In this document: positions 7,793 through 64,000 of the stretch, piece by piece
Layout: each line of letters opens with the position of its first letter
Numbering within the stretch: position 1 is the first letter of the stretch
DNA from: Vibrio litoralis DSM 17657
GTDB taxonomy: Bacteria > Pseudomonadota > Gammaproteobacteria > Enterobacterales > Vibrionaceae
Reading direction: 5' to 3'
Length of the DNA stretch: 64,000 nucleotides
NCBI RefSeq assembly: GCF_000426765.1
Contig: NZ_KE384566.1
Coordinates: 1-64,000 of the forward strand
The notes under the pieces: model-generated
What the model saw: the letters and a program-made list of their open reading frames with translations, nothing else
The model's database searches: none
Told to the model about the DNA's origin: nothing
Position numbers and translations under genes: made by a program

Positions 7793-9334
7793 TTAAAAGC
7801 TCAGGTTCCAGCCAGCGCTTTTCCAGTATTGCTGCTCGGTTTGTAAATCGGCATGCAGTAGCCGATTATTGTCTAACCAGTTTTCATCATCACAACCAAC
7901 TTTCCATTGCTGGTTACTGTCATCTTCACTTTGACAATCGCCTAGCGTTTCAACTGAAAGGGTTAATTTAGGCAGCTCACTTTCTTCTTTTCTTTGCCCG
8001 TTTAGTACGATAGCGAGACGTAATATCGCAATTAAAGGCAGTATTTGTTTTTTCTTATAAATGGTTAACTCAGGCATTTCTTGCAGTTTAAGGGCTTTAC
8101 GCTGAAAGCGAACTAATGCAGCAAGAACTTGTTGTTGTTCTTGGTTAAATCCCGGCATGTTGGTGTGTTGAAGGATATAAGCAGAGTGGCGGTGAAAGCC
8201 TTTATAGCTAATACTAAGCCCTACTTCATGTAGTAAGGCTCCCCAGGATAATAAGCTGCAAAGTCCGCTTTTAGGTTTTATATCGAGTTCTGAACCTACT
8301 TGTTTTAAAAAGCGCTCTGCTTGATTGCGTACATTTTTAGCATGACTCACATCAACTTGATGTTTATCGGCAAGGTTCTCTGCGGTTCGCATGCGAATAT
8401 CTGAACGCTGGAATCGTTCTTCCATTTCATACATTAAACCTTCGCGTAATGCTCCATCGGAGAAGTGCATTTGTTTGAGGCTAAACGATTCAAATATAGC
8501 TAATAAAATCGCAACTCCGGCGGCAAACACCGGTTTTCGTTCATCGGTTAACCCTTCGAGTTTAATATCATCAATTTGATCAAGTTTGCAAAGCTCTTCA
8601 GCCAATTGTTGTAAGCGAGCTAAGGTGATAATGCCATCTTCGTGTCCCATGCCAATCAAGACTTCTCGGATCGCTTTAATGGTGCCGGAGGATCCTAATG
8701 CAGCATCCCAACCGAGCTTTTTGTATGGTTTACATAAGGCTTCTAATTTTTGCTCAGCGGCCAAGATGGCTTTAGAAAAGTTCTTTTTTGATAACTTCCC
8801 ATTGTGAAAAAACTTGTTGGTATAACTGACGCAACCTAACTGCTTACTATTAAGTAGTTGAGGTTCAAATCCAGTACCGATGATCATTTCAGTACTGCCA
8901 CCACCGATATCAATAACAAACTTTTTCTCCCACTCAGGTTGAGTATGGGCAACCCCTAAATAAATTAAGCGTGCCTCTTCTTCACCTGCGATCACTTCAA
9001 TTGGAAAGGGTAGTACATGACGAGCACGAGAAAGAAATATATGAGCGTTATTGGCTTGACGAAGCGTGTGAGTGGCAGCGATTCTAACGTTATCAGCATC
9101 AAAATCTTGGATACGCTCAGCAAACATGGCAAGGCAATCTAGGCCGCGCTGCATTGCGGCATTGTCTAGGTTCATATGAGTATCCAAACCGTCTGCTAAT
9201 CGCACACGCTGCTTATGACGACTGACGATTTGTAAATCATGATCTGTGACTTTCGCCACCACCATGTGAAAACTGTTTGAGCCTAAATCGATAGCGGCAA
9301 TGTGTCGAATATTCGGTTCGGTTGCTAGATTCAT
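7793..9334 (-). CDS. ppx: Ppx, exopolyphosphatase
   Basis: A Ppx/GppA-family phosphatase that releases phosphate from the ends of polyphosphate chains. It shows the ASKHA-fold phosphate loops [14 protein letters not shown] near the N-terminus and [12 protein letters not shown] near residue 145, with the catalytic-Glu region [15 protein letters not shown]-terminal HD-like helical domain covers the last 200 residues. I use the ATG at 9334, with AGG 6 bp upstream; this gives 513 residues, as in E. coli, where a GTG two codons earlier would give 515. It follows ppk directly. Confidence 0.95.
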
Positions 9335-50774: not shown

Positions 50775-52352
50775 ATGACAACCAATATCCATGCTGAACG
50801 CATTTTAATTTTAGATTTTGGCTCTCAATACACCCAATTGATTGCTCGTCGTATCCGTGAAATCGGTGTGTACTGTGAACTGTGGAGCTGGGATGTAGAC
50901 GAAGCGGATATCCGTGAATTTAATCCAAACGGAATTATCTTATCGGGCGGTCCAGAAAGTGTGACTGAAGCAGGTTCTCCTCGCGCTCCTGAGTATGTCT
51001 TTAATGCTGGCGTACCAGTATTTGGTATTTGCTACGGCATGCAGACTATGTCTGAGCAACTAGGCGGTAAAGTTGCTGGTTCTAACGAGCGTGAATTTGG
51101 TTATGCTCAAGTTAAGTCTGTTTCTGACTGTGCTTTATTCAAAAATATCGAAGATGCAATCTCTGAAGATGGCAAACCACTTTTAGATGTATGGATGAGC
51201 CACGGCGATAAAGTGGTTGAGATCCCTGCGGATTTCACCAAAGTTGCTCAAACCGATACTTGCCCATACGCAGCAATGGCCAACGAAGAAAAACATTTTT
51301 ATGGTGTTCAATTCCACCCAGAAGTAACGCACACTCGTCAAGGCTTACGCATGCTTGAAAACTTTGTGCTGAATATCTGTGGCTGTAGCAAACTATGGAC
51401 CCCATCTTCAATCATCGAAGACGCAGTTGCTCGCATTAAAGAGCAAGTGGGTGACGATGAAGTGATCTTAGGTCTATCTGGTGGTGTGGATTCATCAGTC
51501 GTTGCAATGCTAATTCACCGTGCGATTGGTCCTAAATTAACTTGTGTGTTTGTTGATAACGGCTTACTGCGTTTGAACGAAGCTGAGCAAGTCATGGAAA
51601 TGTTTGGCGATCACTTCGGTCTTAACATCATCCATGTCGATGCAGAAAACCGCTTCCTTGACGCACTAGGTGGTGAAGATGAGCCAGAAGCCAAACGTAA
51701 GATCATTGGCCGCGTATTCGTAGAAATCTTTGATGAAGAATCGAAGAAACTGAAGAACGCTAAATGGTTGGCGCAAGGCACTATCTACCCAGATGTGATC
51801 GAATCTGCGGCATCGAAAACGGGTAAAGCGCATGTAATCAAATCTCACCATAACGTTGGCGGCTTGCCAGATGATATGGCGATGGGCTTAGTTGAGCCAT
51901 TACGTGAATTGTTTAAAGATGAAGTGCGTAAAATTGGTCTAGAGCTTGGTCTACCATACAACATGCTTTACCGCCACCCATTCCCTGGCCCAGGTCTAGG
52001 TGTGCGTGTTCTAGGTGAAGTGAAGAAAGAATATTGTGACTTACTACGTCGCGCCGATGCTATCTTCATTGAAGAGCTTCATGCCGCGGATCTTTACAAT
52101 AAAGTTTCTCAAGCCTTTACGGTATTCCTACCTGTACGCTCGGTTGGCGTAATGGGCGATGGCCGTAAATACGATTGGGTTGTGTCACTACGCGCGGTAG
52201 AAACGATTGATTTCATGACCGCACATTGGGCGCACCTACCATACGATTTCCTAGGTAAGGTTTCTAACCGTATCATCAATGAAATTGATGGCATCTCTCG
52301 TGTGGTTTACGATATTTCAGGCAAACCACCCGCGACGATTGAGTGGGAATAA
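50775..52352 (+). CDS. guaA: GuaA, GMP synthase (glutamine-hydrolysing)
   Basis: Amidates XMP to GMP. 525 residues: N-terminal class I glutamine amidotransferase (nucleophile Cys in [16 protein letters not shown]-type His), ATP pyrophosphatase P-loop [10 protein letters not shown], and the C-terminal dimerisation domain ending [12 protein letters not shown]. The 3' end is intact and is the known insertion point for genomic islands, one of which follows. Confidence 0.98.
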
Positions 52353-52659: not shown

Positions 52660-53859
52660 ATGCTGACTGATACCAAGCTACGCAATCTCAAACCCAAAGA
52701 TAAACTATACAAAGTCAATGACCGTGATGGCCTCTACGTTGCTGTGACGACTGCGGGTTCTATCTCATTTCGTTACAACTACTCGATCAATGGCAGACAA
52801 GAAACCATTACCTTTGGCCGCTACGGAGTAGGGGGCATCACGTTAGCAGAAGCGCGTGAGCGTCTCAATGAAGCGAAGAGAATGGTTATTGATGGAAAGT
52901 CACCGGCCAAAGAGAAAGCCCGTGCTAAGGCGAGAACCAAAGATGCTGAAACCTTTGGTGCCTGGGCTATAAAATGGCTGCGTGGCTATCAGATGGCCGA
53001 TTCTACCCGAGATATGCGTCGCTCAGTCTATACCCGAGAACTTAAAGATAAATTTGGTAACTGGAAGCTTACAGAAATTACCCATGAAGATCTGCGAGCA
53101 CTGACTGACGCAATAGTAGAGCGTGGAGCGCCCGCAACGGCTGTACACACACGTGATATTGTACTCCAGGTGTATCGATGGGCGATTGAGAGAGGGCAGA
53201 AAGTTGAGAACCCGGCAGACCTGGTGAGGCCCGCAAGTATCGCGCGGTTTGAGCCAAGAGACCGAACGTTAACACCGGCTGAGATTGGTTTGATGTACCG
53301 CTATATGGAAAAGGTAGGAACCACCCCTTCGATTCGTGCTGCGGTAAAGTTGCTATTGCTGACTATGGTACGCAAAAGCGAATTAACCAATGCAACCTGG
53401 AGCGAAATTAACTTTAGCGAAGCGTTGTGGACTATTCCTAAAGAGAGGATGAAACGGCGTAACCCTCACCTGGTATTTTTGTCACGCCAGGCTATGGACA
53501 TTCTGATCGCCTTGAAGACATTTGCCGGTGGGTCTGATTACATTCTTCCTTCCCGTTATGACTCAGATGCTCCCATGAGTAGTGCGACGATGAACCGAGT
53601 CATGGATTTGACATACAAAGCCGCGCAAAAGGAAGGTCAGTCACTAAGTAAGTTTGGGCCGCATGACCTGCGTCGAACTGCGAGCACTTTGCTGCATGAG
53701 GCTGGATACAACACGGATTGGATAGAAAAATGCCTGGCGCACGAACAGAAAGGGGTTAGGGCAGTTTACAACAAAGCTGAGTACCGAGAACAGCGCGCGG
53801 CCATGTTGCAGGATTGGGCTGACATGATTGATGAGTGGATACTGAGTAAGGACAGTTAA
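52660..53859 (+). CDS. int: tyrosine integrase of the guaA island
   Basis: 399 residues of the P4-like family: N-terminal DUF4102-type arm-binding domain (MLTDTKLRNLKPKDKLYKV, about 1-90), core-binding domain (about 95-190) and catalytic domain with R in MVRKSELTNATW, HDLRR, LAHEQ and the nucleophile Tyr in VYNKAEY. It drives insertion at and excision from guaA. Weak AGG precedes the ATG. Confidence 0.95.
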   Translation: MLTDTKLRNLKPKDKLYKVNDRDGLYVAVTTAGSISFRYNYSINGRQETITFGRYGVGGITLAEARERLNEAKRMVIDGKSPAKEKARAKARTKDAETFGAWAIKWLRGYQMADSTRDMRRSVYTRELKDKFGNWKLTEITHEDLRALTDAIVERGAPATAVHTRDIVLQVYRWAIERGQKVENPADLVRPASIARFEPRDRTLTPAEIGLMYRYMEKVGTTPSIRAAVKLLLLTMVRKSELTNATWSEINFSEALWTIPKERMKRRNPHLVFLSRQAMDILIALKTFAGGSDYILPSRYDSDAPMSSATMNRVMDLTYKAAQKEGQSLSKFGPHDLRRTASTLLHEAGYNTDWIEKCLAHEQKGVRAVYNKAEYREQRAAMLQDWADMIDEWILSKDS

Positions 53860-54005: not shown

Positions 54006-55025
54006 TTGAAAAGCGAAGTAGAACCCAAGATTCAAGCTTTGGTGCTAAGTGGAGGCGGAGTTCGTGGACTCTATACAATCAAATTATTAGCTGAGCTAGA
54101 ACAGCGTATCTCTAACGGAAATCCCAATTACAGCATAGCTAAGCATTTCGATATGATATCTGGAACATCTATAGGAGGCATATTGGCTTTAGGGCTTGCA
54201 TCAGGTAAGACAGCTCGGAGTCTATATGAGCTAATTGACTCAAAACGCTGTGACATATTTCCTGCCCCCAAAAGGGGGTTTTTTGGGAAGTTATCCCGAT
54301 TAAAAAAACAAGCCCTTGAAACTGCATTTGATCCCAAAGTATTAAATCAGGTGGTAACGAACTCCATTGGTGATATTAGAATAAGGGATCTAAAGACAAG
54401 AGTTATAATTCCCGCTGTAAATGGAACAACGGGACGCCCGAAAACCTTCAAAACGCCGCATCATCCTAGTTTTACATTTGATGGTGATAGGTTAGCCAGC
54501 GATGTTGCAATGTCAACGAGTGCTGCTCCAACATACCTTCCTGCGCATCCTTCAATTGATGGTTATATGCTTGATGGAGGTTTATTTGCAAACCTCCCAA
54601 GTTTTATTACTTACCATGAACTGACTTCTAGTCGCTTTCTTAATTTTGACCCCAAATTGGTACACATGCTTTGCATTGGTACTATGGGGAGTAAAACGAG
54701 AATGGATCCTAACTCTGATGGAAGCAAGGGATATATAAATGGTTGGAATAAGGGACAAGACTTGTTGAGTCTAATGATGGATGTTTCAGAGTATTGGCAA
54801 GTAACTATGGCTTCCCACTATTTGGAAGACCGTTTGGTACACATCGATGATCAAAATGTACATGCCATTGATTTAGCTGACTCAAGTGAGACATCCGCAA
54901 ACTTGTTGAAGCGATATGCCGTCGATCGAGCTCAGAGTATTTTGGGAGACTCGAAACAACGAGCATTTTTTGTTCAGCAAGCACGGGAACCACAATTCTA
55001 TAATCTATCTGGAGAAAAGGTATGA
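54006..55025 (+). CDS. capV: CapV, patatin-like phospholipase, CBASS effector
   Basis: 339 residues. Patatin motifs in order: oxyanion loop SGGGVRG (15-21), nucleophile S55 in GTSIGG and catalytic D190 in MLDGGLFAN. In known type II-A CBASS, CapV is switched on by 3'3'-cGAMP from DncV and degrades the inner membrane of the infected cell. It starts at TTG (54006), with AGG upstream; an upstream ATG at 53972 is closed by a stop. The ATGA overlap with the cyclase gene points to coupled translation. Confidence 0.95.
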   Translation: MKSEVEPKIQALVLSGGGVRGLYTIKLLAELEQRISNGNPNYSIAKHFDMISGTSIGGILALGLASGKTARSLYELIDSKRCDIFPAPKRGFFGKLSRLKKQALETAFDPKVLNQVVTNSIGDIRIRDLKTRVIIPAVNGTTGRPKTFKTPHHPSFTFDGDRLASDVAMSTSAAPTYLPAHPSIDGYMLDGGLFANLPSFITYHELTSSRFLNFDPKLVHMLCIGTMGSKTRMDPNSDGSKGYINGWNKGQDLLSLMMDVSEYWQVTMASHYLEDRLVHIDDQNVHAIDLADSSETSANLLKRYAVDRAQSILGDSKQRAFFVQQAREPQFYNLSGEKV

Positions 55026-56278
55026 ACTTTGATTTTACTAAAGCCTTAAATCACCCTCAAAATGGTTTTATTGTTGAGATTACCCCTGATTCCTCGAAAA
55101 TAGATAAGTTAAGAAAGATTCGTGAAGTGATTAGAAATGAGCTACGGGATCAATTCGCAGAATTATCAAATAGCTTTGAGGATATTGGTGGAGTGATGCG
55201 TTATGTACCTAATGTATCGACTAGTTTTTTAGCTGAGGACCTTAAGAATTTATCCCATGAACAGAAGAAATCGCTAAATAAATTAAAACCTAAATTTGCT
55301 TCGCAGGGCTCATTTGTCTACAAAACAATGAATAGTCCATGTCAGCCCCCTCAGCAAATGGATTTAGACGATGGTATATATTTGCCGCTAGATATGTTTG
55401 AAGATAAGCCTGTAATTGGGAAAGAGTTATTTTTTAATTTTGTAGATAAGACTCTATCAAACCTAGCTAAACGTAAAGGTTGGTCGTTTTCTGATGCGAA
55501 GAATACATGTTCGCGCTTGATTATAGATGATGAGCTTCATGTAGACGTTCCGTTATATGCAGTACCAAAGGAAAGACATGCCGTTATGCTTGAAAAAGCG
55601 GCCTTGAATGCAATGGATAGTTCTTTATCTAGTGTGAAAACAAAAGTTAGGCTCGAACCGAATGAAGTGAACCTAGCTCTTCGTAACGCTGAGTCTTGGA
55701 CTGTTAGTGATCCAGCAGTACTAAATGATTACTTTAAGGAGAATTTTAAATTTTACAAGGATCTAGTTGGTGGAGAGGATGTTTGTAGACGAGTAAGTAG
55801 ATATTTAAAGGCTTGGCGAGATTATGCTTTTAAAACTGAAGGTCCTTCTTCTGTCTCGCTCATGATGTGTGTAGTTCTGTCTTTTCAAGAAATGTCACGT
55901 ACACGCTCTATGGATAAATTAACCGATGGAGAAGCTCTCACTGAATGCGCGAAACGTTTACCTGAGCAGTTGATAAGCGGTGTCGTTAATGATGCAGAAA
56001 AAGGTAAAGAGGAAATACTATTTCCGAAAAAAGATATGACGGAACCTGAAATTGAGGAAGTTTACCAAGCTGCTAATGAGTTTTTTTCATCACTCCAAAA
56101 AGCAATGAATGCAAAATCAAAATATGATGCGATTTACTATCTACAGAATTCATTCGGTAGCCGATTCCCTAATCTACCTGAGCTGTTAATTTCATTTAGT
56201 TCTGTTGCTGCGGCTATACGTTCACAACCCGCTAAGGCTCAACCTCAGCCCAATGTTGTAAATCAGGATGCTGGTTAA
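55022..56278 (+). CDS. dncV: DncV-like CD-NTase, cyclic dinucleotide synthase of CBASS
   Basis: 418 residues, clade A CD-NTase. The nucleotidyltransferase signature GSFVYKTMN is followed by MDLDDGIYLP with metal ligands D114 and D116 and the third Asp D175 in HVDVPLYAVP, as in V. cholerae DncV. GPSSVSLM and the C-terminal alpha region also align. The expected product is 3'3'-cGAMP. The chain ends in NQDAG; a C-terminal Gly would suit conjugation by Cap2, which ligates the synthase C-terminus. Partner CapV is encoded just upstream. Confidence 0.95.
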   Translation: MNFDFTKALNHPQNGFIVEITPDSSKIDKLRKIREVIRNELRDQFAELSNSFEDIGGVMRYVPNVSTSFLAEDLKNLSHEQKKSLNKLKPKFASQGSFVYKTMNSPCQPPQQMDLDDGIYLPLDMFEDKPVIGKELFFNFVDKTLSNLAKRKGWSFSDAKNTCSRLIIDDELHVDVPLYAVPKERHAVMLEKAALNAMDSSLSSVKTKVRLEPNEVNLALRNAESWTVSDPAVLNDYFKENFKFYKDLVGGEDVCRRVSRYLKAWRDYAFKTEGPSSVSLMMCVVLSFQEMSRTRSMDKLTDGEALTECAKRLPEQLISGVVNDAEKGKEEILFPKKDMTEPEIEEVYQAANEFFSSLQKAMNAKSKYDAIYYLQNSFGSRFPNLPELLISFSSVAAAIRSQPAKAQPQPNVVNQDAG

Positions 56279-58014
56279 TGGGAAAGTTACAGTCTGCTGC
56301 AAAAGAGTTCTTAGCTCATGGATATACTTTCAGACCTAAATTTCGTACGGGAGAGTACTGTTTCGAAAAGAGCTTTCATAAAGATTCTGGTTCATATGAC
56401 GTTAGATTTGAAATTGATGAAGACTCATTTAGCAAACCACCTTTTCCTATAATTGAATCATTGCCTGAGACATTGCGTAGTCGAAGACTTCCTCACTTAT
56501 TATGTGGGAAGTATTGTTGTTTATTTAGTGATACGTCAGTTATAGATCCCATGAATATTAATCAGTTAGTTTCAAGCTGGTTACATAAACTGGAAGAAAT
56601 TATAGAACTATGGGAGTCTGGAGATTATAGCGAAGATTATCTAACTGAATTTAGTGTTTACTGGGGAGGGATTCCTACATATTTGCTATCTTCTAGAGCT
56701 AAGGATAATGATTTGTCTGTATATAGCTTTGAACGGAAATCTATAAATGGTGAAGAATCTACGGAGTATGTGGTTTCTGATAACAGAGAACGTGCAGAGC
56801 TATGGGCTAGTCGTAGAAATACAATAGGAGTTATTGAGTATCGTAACTCTGCTGTCTTTGTTGAGTTACCTAAGCCTCCATTTATTCATTATAATCACCC
56901 TTGGCCACCGAAAAATTTAAAAGAATTTAGTCAATGGCTTCTTACATATGATAATCAGCATTTAGTGTTGGATAAACTATTGCTAGCTTTAGCTAACCTT
57001 GGTAAATGGAGCAAAAGTTGGTGTACTTTTGTTGATGTTATTTTTCATTATGGTAATGAATTTTTTGGTGTTTCTTTTAATCTTTCAAATGATAATCGTA
57101 AAGCTATTGTGAACAATTATGGTCCTAAATCACGCCGAGGAAGAGGAAGGAAAACAAGAGAAAAATTACGAAATCGTATATTTGAAAAATCTACAGAAAA
57201 AATATTTCCTCTTGATGTGATACCTAGTTCAACTGAATTTGTTTTGGATAGAAATCGTAGTGTTAATTCACCTATATTAAGTGATAAAAGAATTGCTTTG
57301 ATTGGTAGTGGAACTATTGGTGGATATCTAGCTCACAGTTTATGTCAGATTGGAGCAGGATATGGTGATGGATGCATTTGTATTTATGATAATGACATAC
57401 TAAAAATAGGAAATGTTGGGCGACATCTTTTGGGGATTAAATATATAGGAGAAAAAAAGAGTGATGCTATAAAGCATTATATAGATGAACAAGGGCTAAA
57501 TCTAAATATCATATCTGAAGGTAAATTTAGCTTAACTTCTGATTTATCTCATTTTGATTTGATATTAGATTCGACGGGAGATCAAGCCTTTTCTCTCAAC
57601 CTATCTTCAAAAGTTGCAGAATATCGTTCCAATGGAGGAAATATTCTTTTAATCCATAGCTGGGTATCAGGTTTTGGGCATACAGCTAAGTCTTTGCTAG
57701 ATAATGGCTTAAGTGGTTGTTATGCATGCCAATTTGATTATTCAAATAACCTTATCAAAAGTGAACTATATCCTTCTTTCTCTGATGGAAAAGCGCCAGG
57801 CGTTATGAACACTTTTAAGAGGTCTTGTGGAGAAAATCATTTGCCGTTTGGTTCAGAGGCAAGCATGTTAGCGGCTTCGTTAGCGATTCAATTGTTAGGT
57901 AATCGTGGAAAGAAAGCCCCTACATTACTGATGAGAAGGGTATCTGACAAAGCTATTGAGTTAAAAGATAAAAAGTTAAAGAAAAGAATGGACTGTCCAT
58001 CATGCATGAGTTAG
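56278..58014 (+). CDS. cap2: Cap2, E2-E1 fusion ligase of type II CBASS
   Basis: 578 residues. The N-terminal part has E2-like features, with candidate catalytic cysteines at 76, 80 and 81 (LLCGKYCCLF) and a later HPWPP. A Rossmann-type E1 domain starts near residue 339 (IALIGSGTIGGYLAHSL) with DSTGDQ, and C517 in RSCGENHLPFG is the likely E1 cysteine. The chain ends with a CPSC pair. In studied systems Cap2 primes the cyclase by conjugating its C-terminus to other molecules. It overlaps dncV by one base and cap3 by 13 bp. Confidence 0.92.
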   Translation: MGKLQSAAKEFLAHGYTFRPKFRTGEYCFEKSFHKDSGSYDVRFEIDEDSFSKPPFPIIESLPETLRSRRLPHLLCGKYCCLFSDTSVIDPMNINQLVSSWLHKLEEIIELWESGDYSEDYLTEFSVYWGGIPTYLLSSRAKDNDLSVYSFERKSINGEESTEYVVSDNRERAELWASRRNTIGVIEYRNSAVFVELPKPPFIHYNHPWPPKNLKEFSQWLLTYDNQHLVLDKLLLALANLGKWSKSWCTFVDVIFHYGNEFFGVSFNLSNDNRKAIVNNYGPKSRRGRGRKTREKLRNRIFEKSTEKIFPLDVIPSSTEFVLDRNRSVNSPILSDKRIALIGSGTIGGYLAHSLCQIGAGYGDGCICIYDNDILKIGNVGRHLLGIKYIGEKKSDAIKHYIDEQGLNLNIISEGKFSLTSDLSHFDLILDSTGDQAFSLNLSSKVAEYRSNGGNILLIHSWVSGFGHTAKSLLDNGLSGCYACQFDYSNNLIKSELYPSFSDGKAPGVMNTFKRSCGENHLPFGSEASMLAASLAIQLLGNRGKKAPTLLMRRVSDKAIELKDKKLKKRMDCPSCMS

Positions 58015-58454
58015 TTCTTTTGGCTAACAATGGCTCTCGAATATTAATAGAAGAATGCGCGCTTTCTTCTGTCCAAAAATTTAGGCAGCTTAAACCATCT
58101 GATCCTGAAGCTGGAGGTATACTCATTGGGGAGTATCGAGGAGATGACTTAAGAATTGTGGCAGTGACTCTGCCTGGAAAAAGAGATCTTCGAAGTAGGT
58201 GTCACTTTGGCAGACGTAGTCACCACCACCAAAAGCAGGCTTACAATTCGTGGTTGTGTTCGAATCATACTCAGTCACATGTAGGGGATTGGCATACTCA
58301 TCCTCAAGATTATCCAACTCCATCAGCATTAGATTATCAAGAATGGAAAAAAAAGTTACCTCATAGACCAGCATTGCTGATCATATTTGGTCGTCGATCT
58401 GACTGGTATGGTTTTTGGGATGGCTCAGAATTTATTAGCATTAAACCTGTATAG
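58002..58454 (+). CDS. cap3: Cap3, JAMM isopeptidase of type II CBASS
   Basis: 150 residues with a complete JAMM zinc motif: E36 in DPEAGGILIG, H98 and H100 in GDWHTHP, S108 and D111 in TPSALD (H-x-H-x7-S-x2-D). It removes Cap2-made conjugates and so restrains CBASS. Last gene of the operon; its stop is 8 bp from the stop of the opposing gene, with no visible terminator between. Confidence 0.94.
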   Translation: MHELVLLANNGSRILIEECALSSVQKFRQLKPSDPEAGGILIGEYRGDDLRIVAVTLPGKRDLRSRCHFGRRSHHHQKQAYNSWLCSNHTQSHVGDWHTHPQDYPTPSALDYQEWKKKLPHRPALLIIFGRRSDWYGFWDGSEFISIKPV

Positions 58455-58462
58455 TATTAATA

Positions 58463-59050
58463 TTATCTTCTTTGTAATTCATAGTGTCCCTGAGTTAATC
58501 TATCAGTGTAGTAATTTCCCGTAAGCTTATTTATATCGTTGTATCCAAGCTTTAATACTGCTGTTCCATCATAAGGCGAATTTTGGTTACCGTTTTTTCT
58601 TTTTGGTATATTTCTATAGATATAGAATAGAGTAGCTCGCCCAGATTCAGGATCTTTTTTAGGCTTAGCTAATAAAGTGTGAGATTCAGAGTCTTTTGAA
58701 ATAACTTCCATACTGATTTTTAAAATATCCTGTTTTATATATGCTTTAGCTAAAGCAGTTCCTTTAGATTTACTAGAGAACCAGTGGATAGTCATATCCC
58801 ATTCTCCATTTAGGTCAGGGAATAGAATAGTATTTAGACTAGGAAAGAGCCTCCAAATCCATCTCCAACCGATGTAAAAAGAAAATGACAATATCATGTT
58901 TAAAATCATCGAGCCTTTTAAAGAAAATAATATGTTTTCTAGAATCGTATTCTCTGTATTATAAGATATTGACAAAAATGCAACCATTACAGTGGCGTAA
59001 AGTATGGCAGTAAAAGTAATTATTTTCCCAATAGGTAAAATACTAATCAT
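58463..59050 (-). CDS. Cap15-like effector: two membrane helices plus beta-barrel cyclic-nucleotide domain
   Basis: 195 residues from the ATG at 59050. Two hydrophobic helices (about 8-28 and 45-66) precede a strand-rich domain with the marks of the Cap15 family: PDLNGEWDM near 79, FYIYRNIP, DGTAVLKL and the C-terminal LTGNYYTDRLTQGHYELQRR. In CBASS, Cap15 binds a cyclic dinucleotide and disrupts the inner membrane; 2TM-beta effectors of this type also act in Panoptes. The frame is open 12 codons further (59086), but 59050 gives an 8-bp ATGATTAG overlap with the upstream gene, so the two are probably translationally coupled. No CD-NTase is present on this strand. Confidence 0.8.
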   Translation of the reverse strand: MISILPIGKIITFTAILYATVMVAFLSISYNTENTILENILFSLKGSMILNMILSFSFYIGWRWIWRLFPSLNTILFPDLNGEWDMTIHWFSSKSKGTALAKAYIKQDILKISMEVISKDSESHTLLAKPKKDPESGRATLFYIYRNIPKRKNGNQNSPYDGTAVLKLGYNDINKLTGNYYTDRLTQGHYELQRR

Positions 59051-59501
59051 TTTTATTCCAATGCTCAGAGTATATAATTTTTCCATTATTGAAAATCGTT
59101 ATTCCATTGTCTTTTGTCAATATCCCGATCATTAATATATCTTGTAAATAAGAGCCAAACATTGCAGCCATGAACCGACCACCAAACTGATGAGAATAAT
59201 CCACTTCAGCATCAGAAACTATAGGTGGTGAGAAATATTGTGAAGTATGAGTAAGTACAAAGTTTTCGGAAATGAAATGGAAACCATCGTGGTACTCACT
59301 ATAATAGCTTGATATTTTGAGTAAATCGTCAACTAGGTTATTTGGATTGGTCTTGAACTTGCTGGCTCTCAAAGGAAATATCGGAATATTTTTAGAGTTG
59401 TTATAAACAACAATACCGACTCCTGAAAAATCACTGGTTGCACGTTGCTTGACTCTTTGAAGAGTTTTAACAAGTTGTTCGAATAGGTTTGAGCTACACA
59501 T
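59043..59501 (-). CDS. stand-alone divergent diadenylate-cyclase-like (DisA_N/DAC) domain protein
   Basis: 152 residues, no membrane segment. Read against CdaA/DisA it follows the DAC fold in order: an N-terminal helix (LFEQLVKTLQRVKQRATSDF), strand GVGIVVYN, then YHDGFHFISENFVLTHTSQYFSPP in the place of HDGAVII...CYLP, then FGGRFMAAMFG in the place of LGTRHRAAVG, then ILMIGILTKDNGITIFNNGKI in the place of the SEETG strand pair. The HDG triad (71-73) and G-x-R (107-109) survive, while the RHR signature reads RFM. It probably makes or binds a cyclic nucleotide for the Cap15-like partner it overlaps. No GGDD of mCpol and no CD-NTase signature. The call is by eye and needs a profile search. Confidence 0.62.
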   Translation of the reverse strand: MCSSNLFEQLVKTLQRVKQRATSDFSGVGIVVYNNSKNIPIFPLRASKFKTNPNNLVDDLLKISSYYSEYHDGFHFISENFVLTHTSQYFSPPIVSDAEVDYSHQFGGRFMAAMFGSYLQDILMIGILTKDNGITIFNNGKIIYSEHWNKND

Positions 59502-59718: not shown

Positions 59719-60786
59719 CTAAAGTTTCTCATTAGTTTTGGACGTTGGTAGCTGAAATTCTTCTCGAATCGTTCCCAAGGCCTTAGACACTGCCTGATTT
59801 GACAACTGTTTACCTGTGATTTTACCCAGCGCTATACCTATCTGTTTATTAGACATGTTTTGCTTACGAAGAACCAGCATGCGCTTTTTGTTGTCGGTCA
59901 GTCGAGAATCTACCATCTTTCGGGCTAAGTTGCGTAGTTCGGGCACATTAGTTGGATCCAGTGAAGAGTCCAGCATGAAATGATAAAAGTACTCATCAAT
60001 TAATCTATCTCCGGACTTAGCGTTATGACGGTCTGGATGCGCGATTTGGCGTCGTAATCTCAAGACTTCTTGCTCAAATTGTTCTGCAGAGCGTTTGGCT
60101 TGCTTATATAGAGAATTCCAAGAACCATCATGAAGCTTGGGACGATGGTTTAGACAGTAATTCGTACTAAGATCCGGTCTCTTTTTCTTTCCTTCTTTTT
60201 CATCATTGTCACGATCATTGTTTTCTCTCTCAATATATCCGTGTTTCGTCCATGTATGCATGAACTGTGAAAACTCTGTTGGGTTTCCACACAGGGCACA
60301 TAGTCGTGTTTTTTTATCCGCTTTTAAACTGATATCAGGCGCTAGTTTTGATCTATTAGGTTTCTTTCCTTCACAAATCATAAACAATGACTTGAGCATA
60401 TCTTGAGTCGATATGAATAGTATGTCTTGCTCTGTGTGGGAACTCTTATCAACAAAGTTGCGTAAATAAAAGTGAATTTGGTCGGCCGTATACCGAAAAC
60501 CTCTCAATTTGATGAGATCACTATAGTTACACTTTTCTCTTGAGATAGGGCAAAAGGACAAATACTGGTTTGGAAGGCTACTCAAGTATTCCGATACCAC
60601 GGGATCAATCATCTGTTTAATCAAGTTTATGATGTTGTGGCTTTTAGACTCTTCCGAGTATGAATGCCATTTCTCCCTAAAAATGCGAATGGCATTTGCC
60701 ACAGACTTGTCAGAATTCTCCCATACAGGGATATAAAACTGACCTAGTCGTTCTGACGCATCTACCTCAGTTTCAAATATTTTCAT
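59719..60786 (-). CDS. unknown Cys-rich protein with C-terminal HTH
   Basis: 355 residues; I do not recognise the family. Possible metal ligands include FCPISREKC (about 77-85), CALCGN (about 165) and YCLNHRP (about 215), with a charged low-complexity stretch between. The C-terminal 60 residues (KKRMLVLRKQNMSNKQIGIALGKITGKQLSNQAVSKAL) form a probable helix-turn-helix. It is divergent from alpA, so it may be an island regulator. The ATG at 60786 is chosen over a TTG two codons upstream. A 217-bp AT-rich gap separates it from the DAC-like gene. Confidence 0.75.
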   Translation of the reverse strand: MKIFETEVDASERLGQFYIPVWENSDKSVANAIRIFREKWHSYSEESKSHNIINLIKQMIDPVVSEYLSSLPNQYLSFCPISREKCNYSDLIKLRGFRYTADQIHFYLRNFVDKSSHTEQDILFISTQDMLKSLFMICEGKKPNRSKLAPDISLKADKKTRLCALCGNPTEFSQFMHTWTKHGYIERENNDRDNDEKEGKKKRPDLSTNYCLNHRPKLHDGSWNSLYKQAKRSAEQFEQEVLRLRRQIAHPDRHNAKSGDRLIDEYFYHFMLDSSLDPTNVPELRNLARKMVDSRLTDNKKRMLVLRKQNMSNKQIGIALGKITGKQLSNQAVSKALGTIREEFQLPTSKTNEKL

Positions 60787-60871
60787 ATCCAACTTTTTTG
60801 TCCAATGATTAATCTAATCTACAGGCAACTCCTGGCATTATCAACCCAAGAATGTTGAAAAGGAGAGGGTT

Positions 60872-61099
60872 ATGAATCCATCAATGACAAACAAAACGCT
60901 GATTAATCGCAAGACCTTACTCAGCATGATCCCTTTGTCTGATCGAACAATCTATAACCTGGAACAGCGTGGTGAGTTTCCTCGTCGTATTGTTCTGACC
61001 AGCCGAAGTGTTGCTTGGGACCTAGCTGAAGTGGAGAACTGGATAGAAGAAAAGCGCAGGTCTGCGTTAAAAGCCGCAAGACCCGGTTTTATTTGGTAA
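60872..61099 (+). CDS. alpA: AlpA-family excisionase/regulator
   Basis: 75 residues with the MerR-like HTH of AlpA: LINRKTLLSMIPLSDRTIYNLEQRGEFPRRI, then SVAWDLAEVENWIEEKR. AlpA proteins control integrase expression or excision of P4-type islands. Strong AAGGAGAGG before the ATG. Probable operon with repA, 12 bp downstream. Confidence 0.9.
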   Translation: MNPSMTNKTLINRKTLLSMIPLSDRTIYNLEQRGEFPRRIVLTSRSVAWDLAEVENWIEEKRRSALKAARPGFIW

Positions 61100-61111: not shown

Positions 61112-62107
61112 ATGACGCTTAAAGATGGAACGGATGTTCAGGCTAGGGGAACCACTCGGCAAAAAAGTGCCTCGGGTGCCAGCGGTAAGCTAGAGCTAAG
61201 CACGAAATATATCGACAACATCATAGCAATCCAGGAGTGCAGTGCTCAGGAGGCTAATGAACTCGGTTTTATCGCTCGGCTTTTGATTCAGGCGACTATA
61301 CCGCATAGCAAACCCAAATCGAATGAGTGGAGCCGCAAGAATGGTAATTTCACAATGCACATGATGGCCCCCTCATCGGTAGGTTTGCCTTACGGTTGCT
61401 ATGCACGTTTGCTTCTGGTTTGGATGACCACTCAAGCAGTAAGAAATAAGTCCAGATTGGATAAAGGTTATATCGATGAGACAGAGGCGCGCAGGCTTGA
61501 ATTAGGGAATTCTCAGAGAAGTTTTATGGCCGAACTAGGGTTATCGGGAACTGGGGGGAAAGATGGTTCTATTCCGCGTTTGCGTGAGCAGATGGGCAAA
61601 CTTTTTAAAACCACCATTAGCGTTATGTTTACGGAGCATAATGAAGGTGATGAATATATTTCTGAGGATGAGATTGGTGCAAGAGTAGCGGATGTTTCAC
61701 ATATATGGTGGAGCACAAAGCATCCAGATCAAAATTCATTATGGGGCTCTTGGGTAGATCTGTCGCCAAAGTTTTTTCAACTGATAACAGATAAACCAGT
61801 TCCTCTAGATATGAGGGTTTTGCGGTTGATTAAGCGCTCTCCTATGGCTCTCGATATATATTGCTGGGCAACATACCGAGTCAGCTATTTAAAACGTTCA
61901 ACAGTCATTCCTTGGGAAGGGCTAATGGACCAAATAGGAGCCAATTATCCTAATACTTCTCAGGGGCATCGAGATTTCAGAAAACGGTTTCTCGATGGGC
62001 TTAAAAAGGTTCAATATGCATGGCCAGAGCTAGATGCTACTTCAACCGAAAAAGGATTGCTTTTGAAACCAAGTTCTCCACAAGTACCTCGACGGACAAA
62101 GCGATAG
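61112..62107 (+). CDS. repA: RepA-family replication initiator
   Basis: 331 residues resembling plasmid-encoded RepA proteins: FIARLLIQATIPHSKP, SVGLPYGCYARLLLVWMTTQAV, RLELGNSQRSFMAELGLSGTGGKDG and SPMALDIYCWATYRVSYL, suggesting winged-helix DNA binding. Iteron-like repeats and DnaA boxes follow at once, so it probably starts replication of the excised element. The ribosome site is weak. Confidence 0.82.
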   Translation: MTLKDGTDVQARGTTRQKSASGASGKLELSTKYIDNIIAIQECSAQEANELGFIARLLIQATIPHSKPKSNEWSRKNGNFTMHMMAPSSVGLPYGCYARLLLVWMTTQAVRNKSRLDKGYIDETEARRLELGNSQRSFMAELGLSGTGGKDGSIPRLREQMGKLFKTTISVMFTEHNEGDEYISEDEIGARVADVSHIWWSTKHPDQNSLWGSWVDLSPKFFQLITDKPVPLDMRVLRLIKRSPMALDIYCWATYRVSYLKRSTVIPWEGLMDQIGANYPNTSQGHRDFRKRFLDGLKKVQYAWPELDATSTEKGLLLKPSSPQVPRRTKR

Positions 62108-62173: not shown

Positions 62174-62390
62174 TTATCCACGCATGTTCTGTCCCGCTTT
62201 AAAGGGGGTATTTTGCGCATGTTTTGTCCCGGCTTACGCATGTTCTGTCCCGGAGTGCGCATGTTCTGTCCCGCGAAGTGCCAAAAATCTTTTTAATAAC
62301 AGGTGGTTGTAGAACCCCCTATAGTACTTTCCTGTAGGTATACCTATATAAAAATTAACCTGTAGTTAAGCAAACAGATATTGTGGATAA
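62174..62390 (+). other. probable oriV: iteron-like repeats, DnaA boxes, AT-rich stretch
   Basis: Four copies of CGCATGTTCTGTCCCG (62181-62196, 62216-62231 with one change, 62237-62252, 62258-62273); the last three are spaced exactly 21 bp apart, two helical turns. TTATCCACG at 62174 is one base off a DnaA box, and a perfect one (TTATCCACA, minus strand) lies at 62382-62390 next to an AT-rich stretch. This directly follows repA. Confidence 0.72.
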
Positions 62391-62794
62391 GATTGATAAA
62401 AATAAATGGCTTAAAACTGTCAATGAAATCATTTTTTTGGAAGTTATGTATTTTTAAATTAATGAAAATAAAGCGTTTTGTATTTTTTCTCCTTGGCGTC
62501 TAAACATTCATTGACACTTGAGGGGCAGTTAAACACGAAGGCTTTGAATTTAGCCTAGAGCGGAAAGTGTAGGAAAGCTGTGTTTTTCTGTGTCGTGATA
62601 TTGAGTAAAGCCAATACAGATAAATCACTATAAGACCGCTATTTTAGCGCTATTAAATCACTATAAGTGCGGTGTCATACCGTGATAAGTGGCGGACTTA
62701 TCGGTTAAACAGGTTTACACAGGAATAAACAGTTAAATACAGAGAAATGCACAAGGGCATGCATAACTTTCCGTGATAAAACCAAAGTTGAAAT
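62391..62794. other. non-coding region between oriV and oriT with short repeats
   Basis: No gene found; in particular no traK. TAAATCACTATAAG occurs twice (62621-62634 and 62654-62667, 33 bp apart), and GATAAGT / ACTTATC form an inverted repeat at 62684-62702. These may bind replication or transfer proteins. Confidence 0.5.
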
Positions 62795-62867
62795 GCGGGC
62801 AGGATGTGTGAAGTAGGCCCTCCATGCAAGCATGGCGAAGCCTCTTCACTTATGACTTATTCGCACC
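62795..62867 (-). other. oriT: oriT of IncP/RK2 type
   Basis: Read on the minus strand this region closely follows the RK2 oriT as I recall it: GGTGCGAATAAG, then GTGAAG, a large inverted repeat (62808-62827 with 62830-62849), GGGCCTACTTCAC and ATCCTG-CCCG. The predicted nick is after the G of ATCCTG, between 62800 and 62799 on the minus strand. The inverted repeat next to nic is the place where TraJ binds in RK2, and TraJ and TraI are encoded just downstream. Confidence 0.87.
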
Positions 62868-62919
62868 TTCGGCACTCAACGTTGATCCTGCCCTGCGGGG
62901 CCTGAGAGAGGATACACAG

Positions 62920-63294
62920 ATGGAGAACAACACAAATAAGACGACGAGAAAGAATAGTCCTCCGATTAAGGTCTATTGCCTACCGGAAGAGCGTGCGCTG
63001 ATCGAATCCATGTCAGCACAGGCGGGGCTCAGTGCTTCGACCTATTTGCGCGAAGTCGGCCAAGGCTATCGTATCCAGGGAATTACCGAAGCAGAGCATG
63101 TACGCGAGTTAGTGCGGGTTAATGGTGACTTAGGACGTCTGGGTGGATTGCTGAAGTTATGGCTTAGTAATGATGCCAAGGTGGCACATGTTGGGGCCAA
63201 TACGATCTTGGCAGTGCTTAATCGTATCGAGGCGACGCAAGATCAAATGAGTTCACTTATGGAGTCTATTCTTCGCCCGAGGGCGGACCAATGA
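62920..63294 (+). CDS. traJ: TraJ, oriT-binding relaxosome protein (MobC-like)
   Basis: 124 residues, the length of RK2 TraJ (123). It shares PPIKVYCLPEERALIE, VGQGYRIQGI, EHVRELVRVNGDLGRLGGLLKLWL and the C-terminal RPRA. A ribbon-helix-helix protein that binds oriT and recruits TraI. The start at 62920 has GAGAGAGG upstream; a longer frame to 62824 would code across oriT. It overlaps traI by ATGA. Confidence 0.95.
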   Translation: MENNTNKTTRKNSPPIKVYCLPEERALIESMSAQAGLSASTYLREVGQGYRIQGITEAEHVRELVRVNGDLGRLGGLLKLWLSNDAKVAHVGANTILAVLNRIEATQDQMSSLMESILRPRADQ

Positions 63295-64000
63295 TCGCCA
63301 AGCATGTACCGATGCGTTCTCAGGGGAAATCTGACTTTGCAGGCTTGGTGAATTACATCACTGATCACCAGAGCAAAGAACATCGACTTGGTAGCGTTCG
63401 TTTAAATAACTGTGAAGCGGAAACCGTGCGCGATGCGATCAGTGAGGTGTTGGCGACTCAGTTTGCGAACACCCGAGCAAAGAGTGATAAAACCTACCAC
63501 CTCATAGTGAGCTTTCCTAATGGTGAACAGTTAGAAGCGCATACTTTAGCCGCGATAGAAGAGCGCCTTTGCCAAGGCTTGGGCTATGGCGAGCATCAGC
63601 GTGTCAGTGCTGTGCACAACGATACGGACAATCAACATATCCATATCGCGATCAATAAAATTCATCCTACGCGTAACACAATCCATGAGCCTTATTACCC
63701 ACATAAAAAGCTAGCGGAAATGTGCGAGGCCATCGAGCAGGATTTTGGTTTGCAGCAGGATAATCACATACCGCGCAAGCGCGGGGCCGAATCGCGTGCC
63801 ATGGATATGGAGCGGCATTCGGGTATTGAAAGCTTAGTGGGTTGGGTGAAGCGCGAATGCATGGACGAGATTAAATCAGCCAATAGCTGGCAGGCGTTGC
63901 ACCAGGTCATGCAGGACAATGGTTTGCAGTTAAGAACCAGAGGAAATGGTCTAGTGATCGTTGCCGACGGTGAAGCGATCATCAAAGCAAGCACCTTAGG
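63291..64000 (+). CDS. traI: TraI relaxase, IncP-type (MOBP), 3' end outside window
   Basis: The first 236 codons, open to the window edge. It begins MIAKHVPMRSQGKSDFAGLVNYITD with the nicking Tyr at residue 22, as in RK2 TraI. Motif III reads HNDTDNQHIHIAINKIHP, followed by RNTIHEPYYPHK and ESLVGWVKREC. It cuts oriT and leads the strand into the recipient. Whether the gene is complete beyond the window is unknown. Confidence 0.95.
   Translation, partial: MIAKHVPMRSQGKSDFAGLVNYITDHQSKEHRLGSVRLNNCEAETVRDAISEVLATQFANTRAKSDKTYHLIVSFPNGEQLEAHTLAAIEERLCQGLGYGEHQRVSAVHNDTDNQHIHIAINKIHPTRNTIHEPYYPHKKLAEMCEAIEQDFGLQQDNHIPRKRGAESRAMDMERHSGIESLVGWVKRECMDEIKSANSWQALHQVMQDNGLQLRTRGNGLVIVADGEAIIKASTL

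Follow-up and report, generated by a model that had tools for sequence, protein, structure and literature searches.

We analysed the first 64,000 bases (hereafter the window) of a 706-kb contig of Vibrio litoralis DSM 17657, from a draft genome of 3.82 Mb in 20 contigs (completeness 100). Positions above 64,000 refer to the same contig. The right part of the window holds a genomic island inserted in guaA. This island carries an RK2-type origin of transfer (oriT), traJ and traI, and, downstream of the window, trbJ, trbK and trbL. Here we describe this transfer module and the similarity between the C-terminal tails of its TrbJ and TrbK, which recurs in IncP-like elements.

The island and its borders

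The integration target guaA (50775..52352, plus strand) is an open reading frame (ORF) with DNA matches in 41 of the 41 genomes searched, and the island lies in its 3' end. An 8-bp attachment (att) core, GAGTGGGA, which is known for guaA islands from the part of the source available to us (PMC7775301), was recognised by inspection. It occurs in three plus-strand copies across 118 kb, at the guaA end (52341..52348), at 71485 and at 74193; minus-strand copies at 8928 and 37141 are far off and unlinked to the island. Neither a 14-mer search nor a 20-mer mismatch scan found an att pair near the island end. On the right side of 71485 and of 74193 alike, about 90 bp match (75-82%) the sequence downstream of guaA in two related loci (L006 and L007). 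These loci have no such integrase within the 1.5-kb flank examined and were used as the empty-site check. From the att copies and this match we place the island at ~52.35-71.49 kb (~19 kb). A second piece of 2.7 kb bounded by GAGTGGGA (contig 71485-74193, L002:13486-16194) stands in tandem with the island, beyond the right att, and encodes an AraC-type regulator and a major facilitator superfamily (MFS) transporter. The AraC/MFS stretch (contig 71619-73959) had a DNA match in 0 of 30 relatives, so that it was unusable as an empty-site check.

A tyrosine integrase with an Arm-DNA-bind_3 domain (52660..53859, plus strand; PF00589 1.5e-23, PF13356 6e-20) stands next to guaA and is 87.9-100% identical in seven related islands. 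It is followed by genes of a cyclic-oligonucleotide-based anti-phage signalling system (CBASS), a two-transmembrane (2TM) effector and a DAC-like protein, a 357-aa protein, AlpA, RepA, iterons, oriT, traJ and traI; after traI come trbJ, trbK, trbL, two small ORFs, darG, darT, a 61-aa ORF and the right att. The island thus has a site-specific integrase (PF00589) with att borders (GAGTGGGA at 52341 and 71485) and an oriT and a relaxase of its own, as expected of an integrative and mobilizable element (IME). It has no complete conjugation machine: no match to VirB4 (PF03135) or to a TraG/VirD4-type coupling protein (PF02534) was found in the draft genome. Because neither was found, transfer should need a helper.

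Origin of transfer, relaxase and trb genes

The oriT lies on the minus strand at 62792..62901. Positions 62796-62901 align with the oriT region of the IncP-alpha plasmid pBS228 (75.7% over 107 bp, E 1e-14) and positions 62792-62901 with R751 (72% over 111 bp, E 9e-10). The region also aligns with those of mobilizable plasmids, namely pMAD49b (85% over 115 bp), pMATVIM-7 (79% over 160 bp) and pMRCP1333. In the pBS228 and R751 alignments the nic region, the inverted repeat and the TraJ-site side follow each other in the order of an RK2/IncP oriT, and the nic-side sequence GGGCAGGATGTGTGAAGT is letter for letter the same in R751 and the island. By analogy with RK2, we take the nick to lie at 62800/62799 on the minus strand. 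TraJ (62920..63294, plus strand; NF010451 2.2e-53, PF21983 7e-20) has 124 aa, as does R751 TraJ. The TraI relaxase (63291..65051, plus strand, inside the window up to 64000; NF041893 1.4e-171) has 586 aa, and its alignment with R751 shows that Tyr22, Ser74 and motif III (HNDTDNxHIHIAINKIHP) are retained. TraI of R751 is longer (747 aa), but three mobilizable plasmids with the same gene order have TraI of 590, 609 and 610 aa, and the island protein, being of similar size, is unlikely to be a damaged, shortened form. The interval from repA to traJ contains no traK-like ORF, its longest minus-strand ORF having 43 aa; the rest of the genome was not searched for traK.

These results bear out most of a first-pass annotation made from the letters of the window, which had placed an RK2-type oriT on the minus strand here, beside a TraJ of near-RK2 length and a TraI with Tyr22 and motif III intact, inside a chromosomal island; its coordinates and strand were right. 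A truncation of traI past the window, which it named as a possible objection, is excluded, as the gene runs intact to contig position 65051. It also proposed looking for mating-pair genes after position 64000, and trbJ, trbK and trbL are present there. With these three genes found, the question becomes why the island brings its own tip, exclusion and VirB6-like subunits.

Downstream of traI, trbJ occupies contig positions 65289-66062, trbK 66065-66262, and trbL 66265-67542 with an additional piece in the +1 frame at 67517-67795. TrbK has 65 aa and a lipobox (LVGC) recognised by eye, with no match to a family model. As a small lipoprotein gene between trbJ and trbL it has the position of a TrbK, and its exclusion activity is predicted from this. 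In seven of the seven Vibrionaceae islands compared, trbL ends at a conserved GGAGGG-N-GAC-TGA (L002:8266-9796, contig 66265-67795 in the island), and the +1 frame encodes a sequence that resembles the C-terminus of IncP-type TrbL. This layout recalls the +1 frameshift of prfB; it may represent programmed frameshifting or a TrbL in two pieces.

Paired C-terminal tails of TrbJ and TrbK

The TrbJ of the island ends in FDMGEPTDRSENRGF and its TrbK in WDMGEPTDRSKNKGF. Similar pairs were found in R751 (TrbJ GSYRASPARTW, TrbK GDFKPSPKREW), pKS208 (QKSPVVEW and QTSPEVKW), Xanthomonas hortorum (NPKNWLQVKP and HPKNWLEVKP) and the Sphingobium plasmid pCFD-1-3, in which both proteins end in TKPTPIGTYQN. 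Every TrbJ was paired with every TrbK and its final 22 residues were scored against the final 30 of the partner, using non-redundant sets of 29, 23 and 15 pairs at 90, 80 and 70% TrbJ identity. Own pairs had mean scores of 51.0, 50.9 and 53.1 in these sets versus 21.7, 21.7 and 18.8 for foreign pairs, and the own-pair mean was reached by none of 100,000 permutations in each set (p=1e-5, the floor of the permutation). Individually, 29 of 29, 22 of 23 and 15 of 15 own pairs scored above their own 99% shuffle. A control comparison of the neighbouring region of TrbJ with the body of TrbK gave p values of 0.75, 0.91 and 0.67 (sets of 26, 20 and 16). When the last 60 residues of TrbJ were aligned with TrbK, the best local match reached to within 6 residues of the C-terminus of each protein in 46 of 53 pairs, a count that includes redundant pairs. 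Judged by sequence statistics, then, tails in the IncP-like set match within elements and differ between elements.

The pairs came from several sources. Eighteen plasmid records were chosen, with their tails unseen, from a spread listing of 60 of the 447 records with a TrbJ match. Of a further 79 TrbJ loci, 43 lacked a lipoprotein candidate and 36 had one; the IncP-like group took in 17 of these 36, exactly those whose E value to the seed profile was no higher than 2e-91, a line drawn after the output was seen. In 12 of these 17 loci TrbK was identical to another in the set and was removed by the identity filter. The sets of 29, 23 and 15 omit Comamonas (no annotated TrbK), the first TrbK of pMNBL056 and genome G084, which is still present in the control set of 26, and include an unannotated lipoprotein ORF of Neisseria picked by script.

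The similarity is confined to these two proteins as far as compared. TrbJ tails did not exceed the 99% shuffle against TrbL ends of seven elements or TrbI ends of four, and a general end motif of the operon was rejected for this reason. Plasmid pMNBL056 (L126) has two tandem TrbK genes, and only the second has a tail matching TrbJ. Identical tail residues are encoded by different codons at 50 of 95 positions in 10 pairs, and at 9 of 12 in the island; such codon differences argue for conservation at the protein level and against simple recent copying. A changed residue seemingly shared by trbJ and trbK of G084 was discarded as an artefact, since trbJ is read out of frame there; in this genome (L028/L029), trbJ is frameshifted near its 3' end. 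In a low-confidence structure model of TrbJ from V. salilacus, the tail (residues 246-257) would lie past the last helix, with a predicted local distance difference test (pLDDT) score under 50, as expected of a free peptide. Matching TrbJ/TrbK tails appear to be new, as we found no report of them in the literature searched, which excludes Haase 1996 and Lyras 1994, both possibly relevant.

Defence cargo and other genes of the island

The left half of the island carries a type II CBASS (54006..58454, plus strand), with a CapV phospholipase, a DncV-like cyclase, Cap2 (E1-E2) and Cap3 (JAB), supported by Pfam and PADLOC (3e-87, 2e-121, 1.5e-251 and 1e-45, respectively). It thus has the CD-NTase, effector, Cap2 and Cap3 of a type II system. 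Beside it lie a 2TM Cap15-type effector (58463-59086, minus strand; PF18153 1e-20, PADLOC 2TM 6e-34) and a small protein of 152 aa (59043-59501, minus strand) that resembles diadenylate cyclases (DAC) under the cut-off (PF02457 2.8e-4) and has no PADLOC match. The overlapping genes of the 2TM effector and this weakly DAC-like (DisA-type) protein are possibly a separate small cyclase-effector pair. At the other end are an 84-aa ORF (contig 67816-68070), darG (68175-69317, minus strand) and darT (69317-70741, minus strand).

Between the cargo and oriT, a conserved island protein of 357 aa (59719..60792, minus strand), with no Pfam or PADLOC match, adjoins alpA and is present in nine islands with RepA of at least ~70% identity (its own identity being 33.7-99.7%). 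The AlpA-type regulator (60872..61099, plus strand; PF05930 7e-13) is followed by RepA, a plasmid-type initiator with a RepA_C domain (61112..62107, plus strand; PF04796 6e-35), and by four 21-bp repeats, CGCATGTTYTGTCCCG- (62181..62278, plus strand), which are putative iterons of a replication origin.

Related islands

RepA was found in 6 of 99 genomes of the genus including that of V. litoralis, and in the other five its identity was at least 80% in four and 32% in one. The islands of these four Vibrio genomes (G084, G002, G050 and G073) have a backbone in common with those of V. cincinnatiensis (L038) and Salinivibrio (L042), which starts with the 357-aa protein and extends to the 84-aa ORF. 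In six related islands TraI is 94-97% and TrbJ 89-99% identical to that of the V. litoralis island. In 500-bp bins, the V. cincinnatiensis locus is 79.2% identical in guaA (51500-51999) versus 98.6-100% from 52.5 to 61.0 kb; further right, the lowest bin in repA has 73.4% and the stretch from 63 to 68 kb 89.6-98%. The near-identity of the left ~8.4 kb compared with guaA suggests a recent exchange between species and a mosaic island.

Cargo was inspected at least partly in nine islands, and strong defence matches were found in six and weaker ones in three. PADLOC was run on a part of all cargo, namely nine proteins of the V. litoralis island and 11 proteins chosen from the cargo of seven relatives. 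The V. cincinnatiensis island has the same CBASS (tblastn), the G084 island RT_VI and PDC-S06, the V. salilacus island a type II methyltransferase with DarTG homologues, the Buttiauxella island a type IIG enzyme and the Erwinia island Gabija. The weaker matches are in G050 (1e-17), V. furnissii (2e-7) and Salinivibrio (3e-10).

Three islands of Enterobacterales (L039-L041) have matches to TraJ, TrbJ and TrbL and a related RepA, AlpA and 357-aa protein. They have no TraI match, and ~100 bp separates traJ and trbJ; in L039 the TraJ match is split over two frames. They look intermediate between IncP islands and the relaxase-free GIsul2. More distant RepA relatives (L043, L044, L045, L047, L049, L051 and L055) were set aside, as they have no other backbone gene except for a weak TraI match in L044. 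We also noticed a 29.7-kb record of V. alginolyticus pL29 (NZ_CP017910.1, L098), presented as a circular plasmid and typed as non-mobilizable, in which yfgM and beta-propeller genes accompany AlpA and trbJKL. The record may represent an island of the chromosomal guaA region that was closed into a circle during assembly.

Comparison with known mobile elements

According to the part available to us of a 2017 review (PMC5704250), IncP islands combine a guaA site, RepA, a MobP relaxase, TraJ, TraK, TrbJ, a TrbK of 69 aa and TrbL. The V. litoralis island resembles those described in Brucella suis and Burkholderia glumae in its tyrosine integrase, guaA 3' end, RepA, TraI (MobP) and TraJ, and in having TrbJ, a small TrbK and TrbL with no other genes of a type IV secretion system (T4SS); this likeness is to their description, not their sequence. 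It differs in having no traK-like ORF in the repA-traJ interval, whereas TraK is the second relaxosome accessory factor (RAF) of the B. glumae island. The cargo differs as well, being defence genes (CBASS, 2TM and DarTG) here and kasugamycin resistance or unknown genes in the IncP islands of that review. Because TraK is lacking from this interval, the element is a TraK-less variant of the published IncP-island plan with defence cargo, and not a strict member.

Other elements share parts of this plan. The annotated stretches of pMATVIM-7 and pMRCP1333 have traJ-traI-trbJ-trbK-trbL, as does the island, and pMAD49b has traJ-traI-trbJ-trbK, with no trbL in its incomplete gene table; all three share the oriT type. 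A stretch that we take to be GIsul2 has trbJ-trbK-trbL, too. Published descriptions, as far as available, give GIsul2 the guaA site and this trio but no relaxase gene (PMC5704250), whereas the island has TraJ and TraI. ICERspD18B has GAGTGGGA at guaA and trbJKL, and its transfer to E. coli was reported at ~2.8e-7 per donor (PMC7775301, in part). The order traJ-traI-trbJ-trbK(-trbL) is also found in pPE52IMP, for which the accessible text says that trbBCDEFGHI is absent, yet lists virB4 (PMC9501424). Unlike the integrated island with its integrase and att sites, pMATVIM-7, pMRCP1333, pMAD49b and pPE52IMP exist as autonomous plasmids, and resistance genes and traK occur in some of them. A comparable strategy is that of SGI1 with IncC plasmids, where an island remodels the mating apparatus of the helper with its own subunits; in the 2017 review SGI1 uses TraN, TraH and TraG with a helper of mating-pair formation type F (MPF-F) and has no relaxase, whereas the V. 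litoralis island has TrbJ, TrbK and TrbL.

The trio also resembles the TrbK/EexN exclusion systems of IncP, IncN and pKPC_UVA01, in which a small lipoprotein is encoded between VirB5-like and VirB6-like genes. In the part available of the study on pKPC_UVA01 (PMC8923210), exclusion depends on the C-terminal region of TrbK, no partner in the donor is said to be known for IncP TrbK, and a match between TrbJ and TrbK tails goes unmentioned. In another paper seen in part, trbJ or trbK in the recipient each gave resistance to the RP4 T4SS (PMC11045733). A shared tail would explain both the need for the TrbK C-terminus and the protection by either gene.

Proposed mechanism

We propose that the integrase recombines GAGTGGGA at the 3' end of guaA, with excision probably controlled by AlpA, and that RepA and the iterons probably copy the resulting circle. 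By homology, TraJ and TraI would form a relaxosome at oriT and nick it. A resident IncP/MPF-T helper would supply the mating pore and the coupling protein by which the strand leaves; we invoke this helper because neither was found in the genome. At this stage the TrbJ, TrbK and TrbL of the island would replace or join the tip protein, exclusion protein and VirB6-like subunit of the helper. This follows an earlier proposal for IncP islands and GIsul2, both of which were suggested to subvert the pore of IncP helpers (PMC5704250, in part). The first-pass annotation had suggested mobilisation of the defence cargo in trans by IncP-type plasmids, and this is still the best reading, given an oriT, TraJ and a complete TraI, no VirB4 or coupling protein of its own, defined borders, near-identity with V. 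cincinnatiensis and a published family; it stays something that we infer, with no traK-like ORF beside oriT.

In our model the C-terminal tail of TrbJ is copied in the TrbK of the same element. A TrbK in the recipient would show this tail in the periplasm and occupy or jam the part of the donor that holds the TrbJ tail, perhaps TrbL or TrbJ, so that entry is blocked and the tail acts as an exclusion label. Since TrbL completes the trio, it is the foremost candidate for the reader of this label. The tail of the island is unlike those of IncP, which would lower the sensitivity of the helper pore to IncP TrbK and still let the island exclude its own kind. A role of the tail in exclusion and retargeting is thus what we infer from the pairing. 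For the whole reading, namely the transfer module of an IME on the IncP-island plan, a helper pore, trb subunits supplied by the island and TrbK tail mimicry of TrbJ, we estimate a probability of roughly 0.7. The general claim that entry exclusion in IncP-like and several VirB5/EexN conjugation systems works by mimicry, with a recipient lipoprotein copying the variable tail of a donor VirB5-type protein and trbJ-trbK-trbL serving as one relabelling unit, is more tentative, and we give it slightly less than an even chance.

Counter-evidence and alternative explanations

Several points weigh against the proposed mechanism. The own TrbK was the top match in just 14 of 29, 13 of 23 and 12 of 15 cases, which we attribute to tails being shared by close IncP plasmids, and the tested set included the seven pairs that gave the idea. 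Confidence in the structure model of TrbJ is low (mean pLDDT 64.9), and TraK, which belongs to the published plan, has no counterpart beside oriT. Furthermore, tails were unmatched in a group of TrbJ that we call Ti/Tn4371-like: in 15 non-redundant pairs of 19 with a candidate lipoprotein, some of them doubtful ORFs, own pairs scored 16.7 vs 15.9 (p=0.23) and 1 of 15 exceeded the 99% shuffle. VirB5-EexN pairs fit only in part: of 30 EexN loci, 24 (L201-L224) were examined, and 18 of these had an upstream ORF of at least 150 aa; 9 of these 18, several of them near-copies, scored above their own 99% shuffle and two more above 95%. Ten of the upstream ORFs were checked by Pfam (seven VirB5, PF07996; two LysR regulators; one with no match), and a true VirB5-EexN pair, L215, was unmatched. 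The IncN plasmid R46 and the IncW plasmid R388 have short end matches (SPSI/SPKI and GMPTI/GMPKI, respectively), whose scores (21 and 22) lack significance on their own and lie under the general 95% shuffle of 24-25. Finally, F-type exclusion acts on the VirB6-like TraG and not on VirB5, as described in the part available of PMC12624023. Apart from these comparisons, several Ti/Tn4371-like lipoproteins contain internal RRRF[LF]-like stretches that resemble the TrbJ end by eye.

The similarity of the tails might be a by-product of gene conversion or of an ancient duplication of 3' ends, with no role in exclusion. The two genes are adjacent and their tails vary together. Gene conversion could account for part of the similarity, as in pCFD-1-3, in which the same codons encode 10 of the 13 identical tail residues. 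The codon differences in the island and across the 10 pairs, and the requirement for the TrbK C-terminus in pKPC_UVA01, speak against this explanation, and we regard it as unlikely. We find it similarly improbable that the tail serves both proteins as a signal for sorting or assembly (e.g., for an inner-membrane or periplasmic partner such as TrbL) and that exclusion specificity lies elsewhere in TrbK. Such a role would suit two genes that stand side by side ahead of trbL, and VirB5 and VirB6 cooperate in the pore according to a review; but sorting should not require a signal that differs from element to element and yet agrees within each, and the tail is absent from the TrbI and TrbL ends compared.

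Two other explanations concern the island rather than the tail. The natural helper might be another MPF-T element and not an IncP plasmid, with trbJKL serving only for self-exclusion between island copies. In line with this, TrbK of the island is only 20-30% identical to TrbK of the six plasmids compared, and TrbL 46-51% identical to TrbL of the IncP-type plasmids compared. TrbJ, however, is 80 and 74% identical to those of pHP-42 and pVb1636, IncP-type plasmids of marine hosts that list trbB-trbL and a TraG-type coupling protein, the second from V. alginolyticus; a helper of the other kind therefore seems to us a minor possibility. The island might also be an immobile remnant, once mobile and now kept for its defence genes, with tra and trb as relics. 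No helper T4SS was found in the genome, the second GAGTGGGA-bounded piece lies outside the right att and the oriT has no traK-like ORF beside it, all of which would fit a remnant. Intact frames of TraJ, TraI, TrbJ and TrbK, the high identity of TraI and TrbJ across the six related islands, and the recent movement indicated by the left 8.4 kb shared with V. cincinnatiensis make this very unlikely.

Implications

The paired tails offer a simple and direct test for the question of the donor partner of IncP TrbK. If the mechanism is true, exclusion groups could be read from sequence and the mutual shut-out of plasmids and islands could be predicted. It would also mean that mobile islands and small plasmids carry trbJ, trbK and trbL as a unit since the tip, the excluder and the pore subunit have to bear the same label. 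For Vibrio, the island indicates that anti-phage systems ride on a helper-dependent conjugative vehicle that moves between species.

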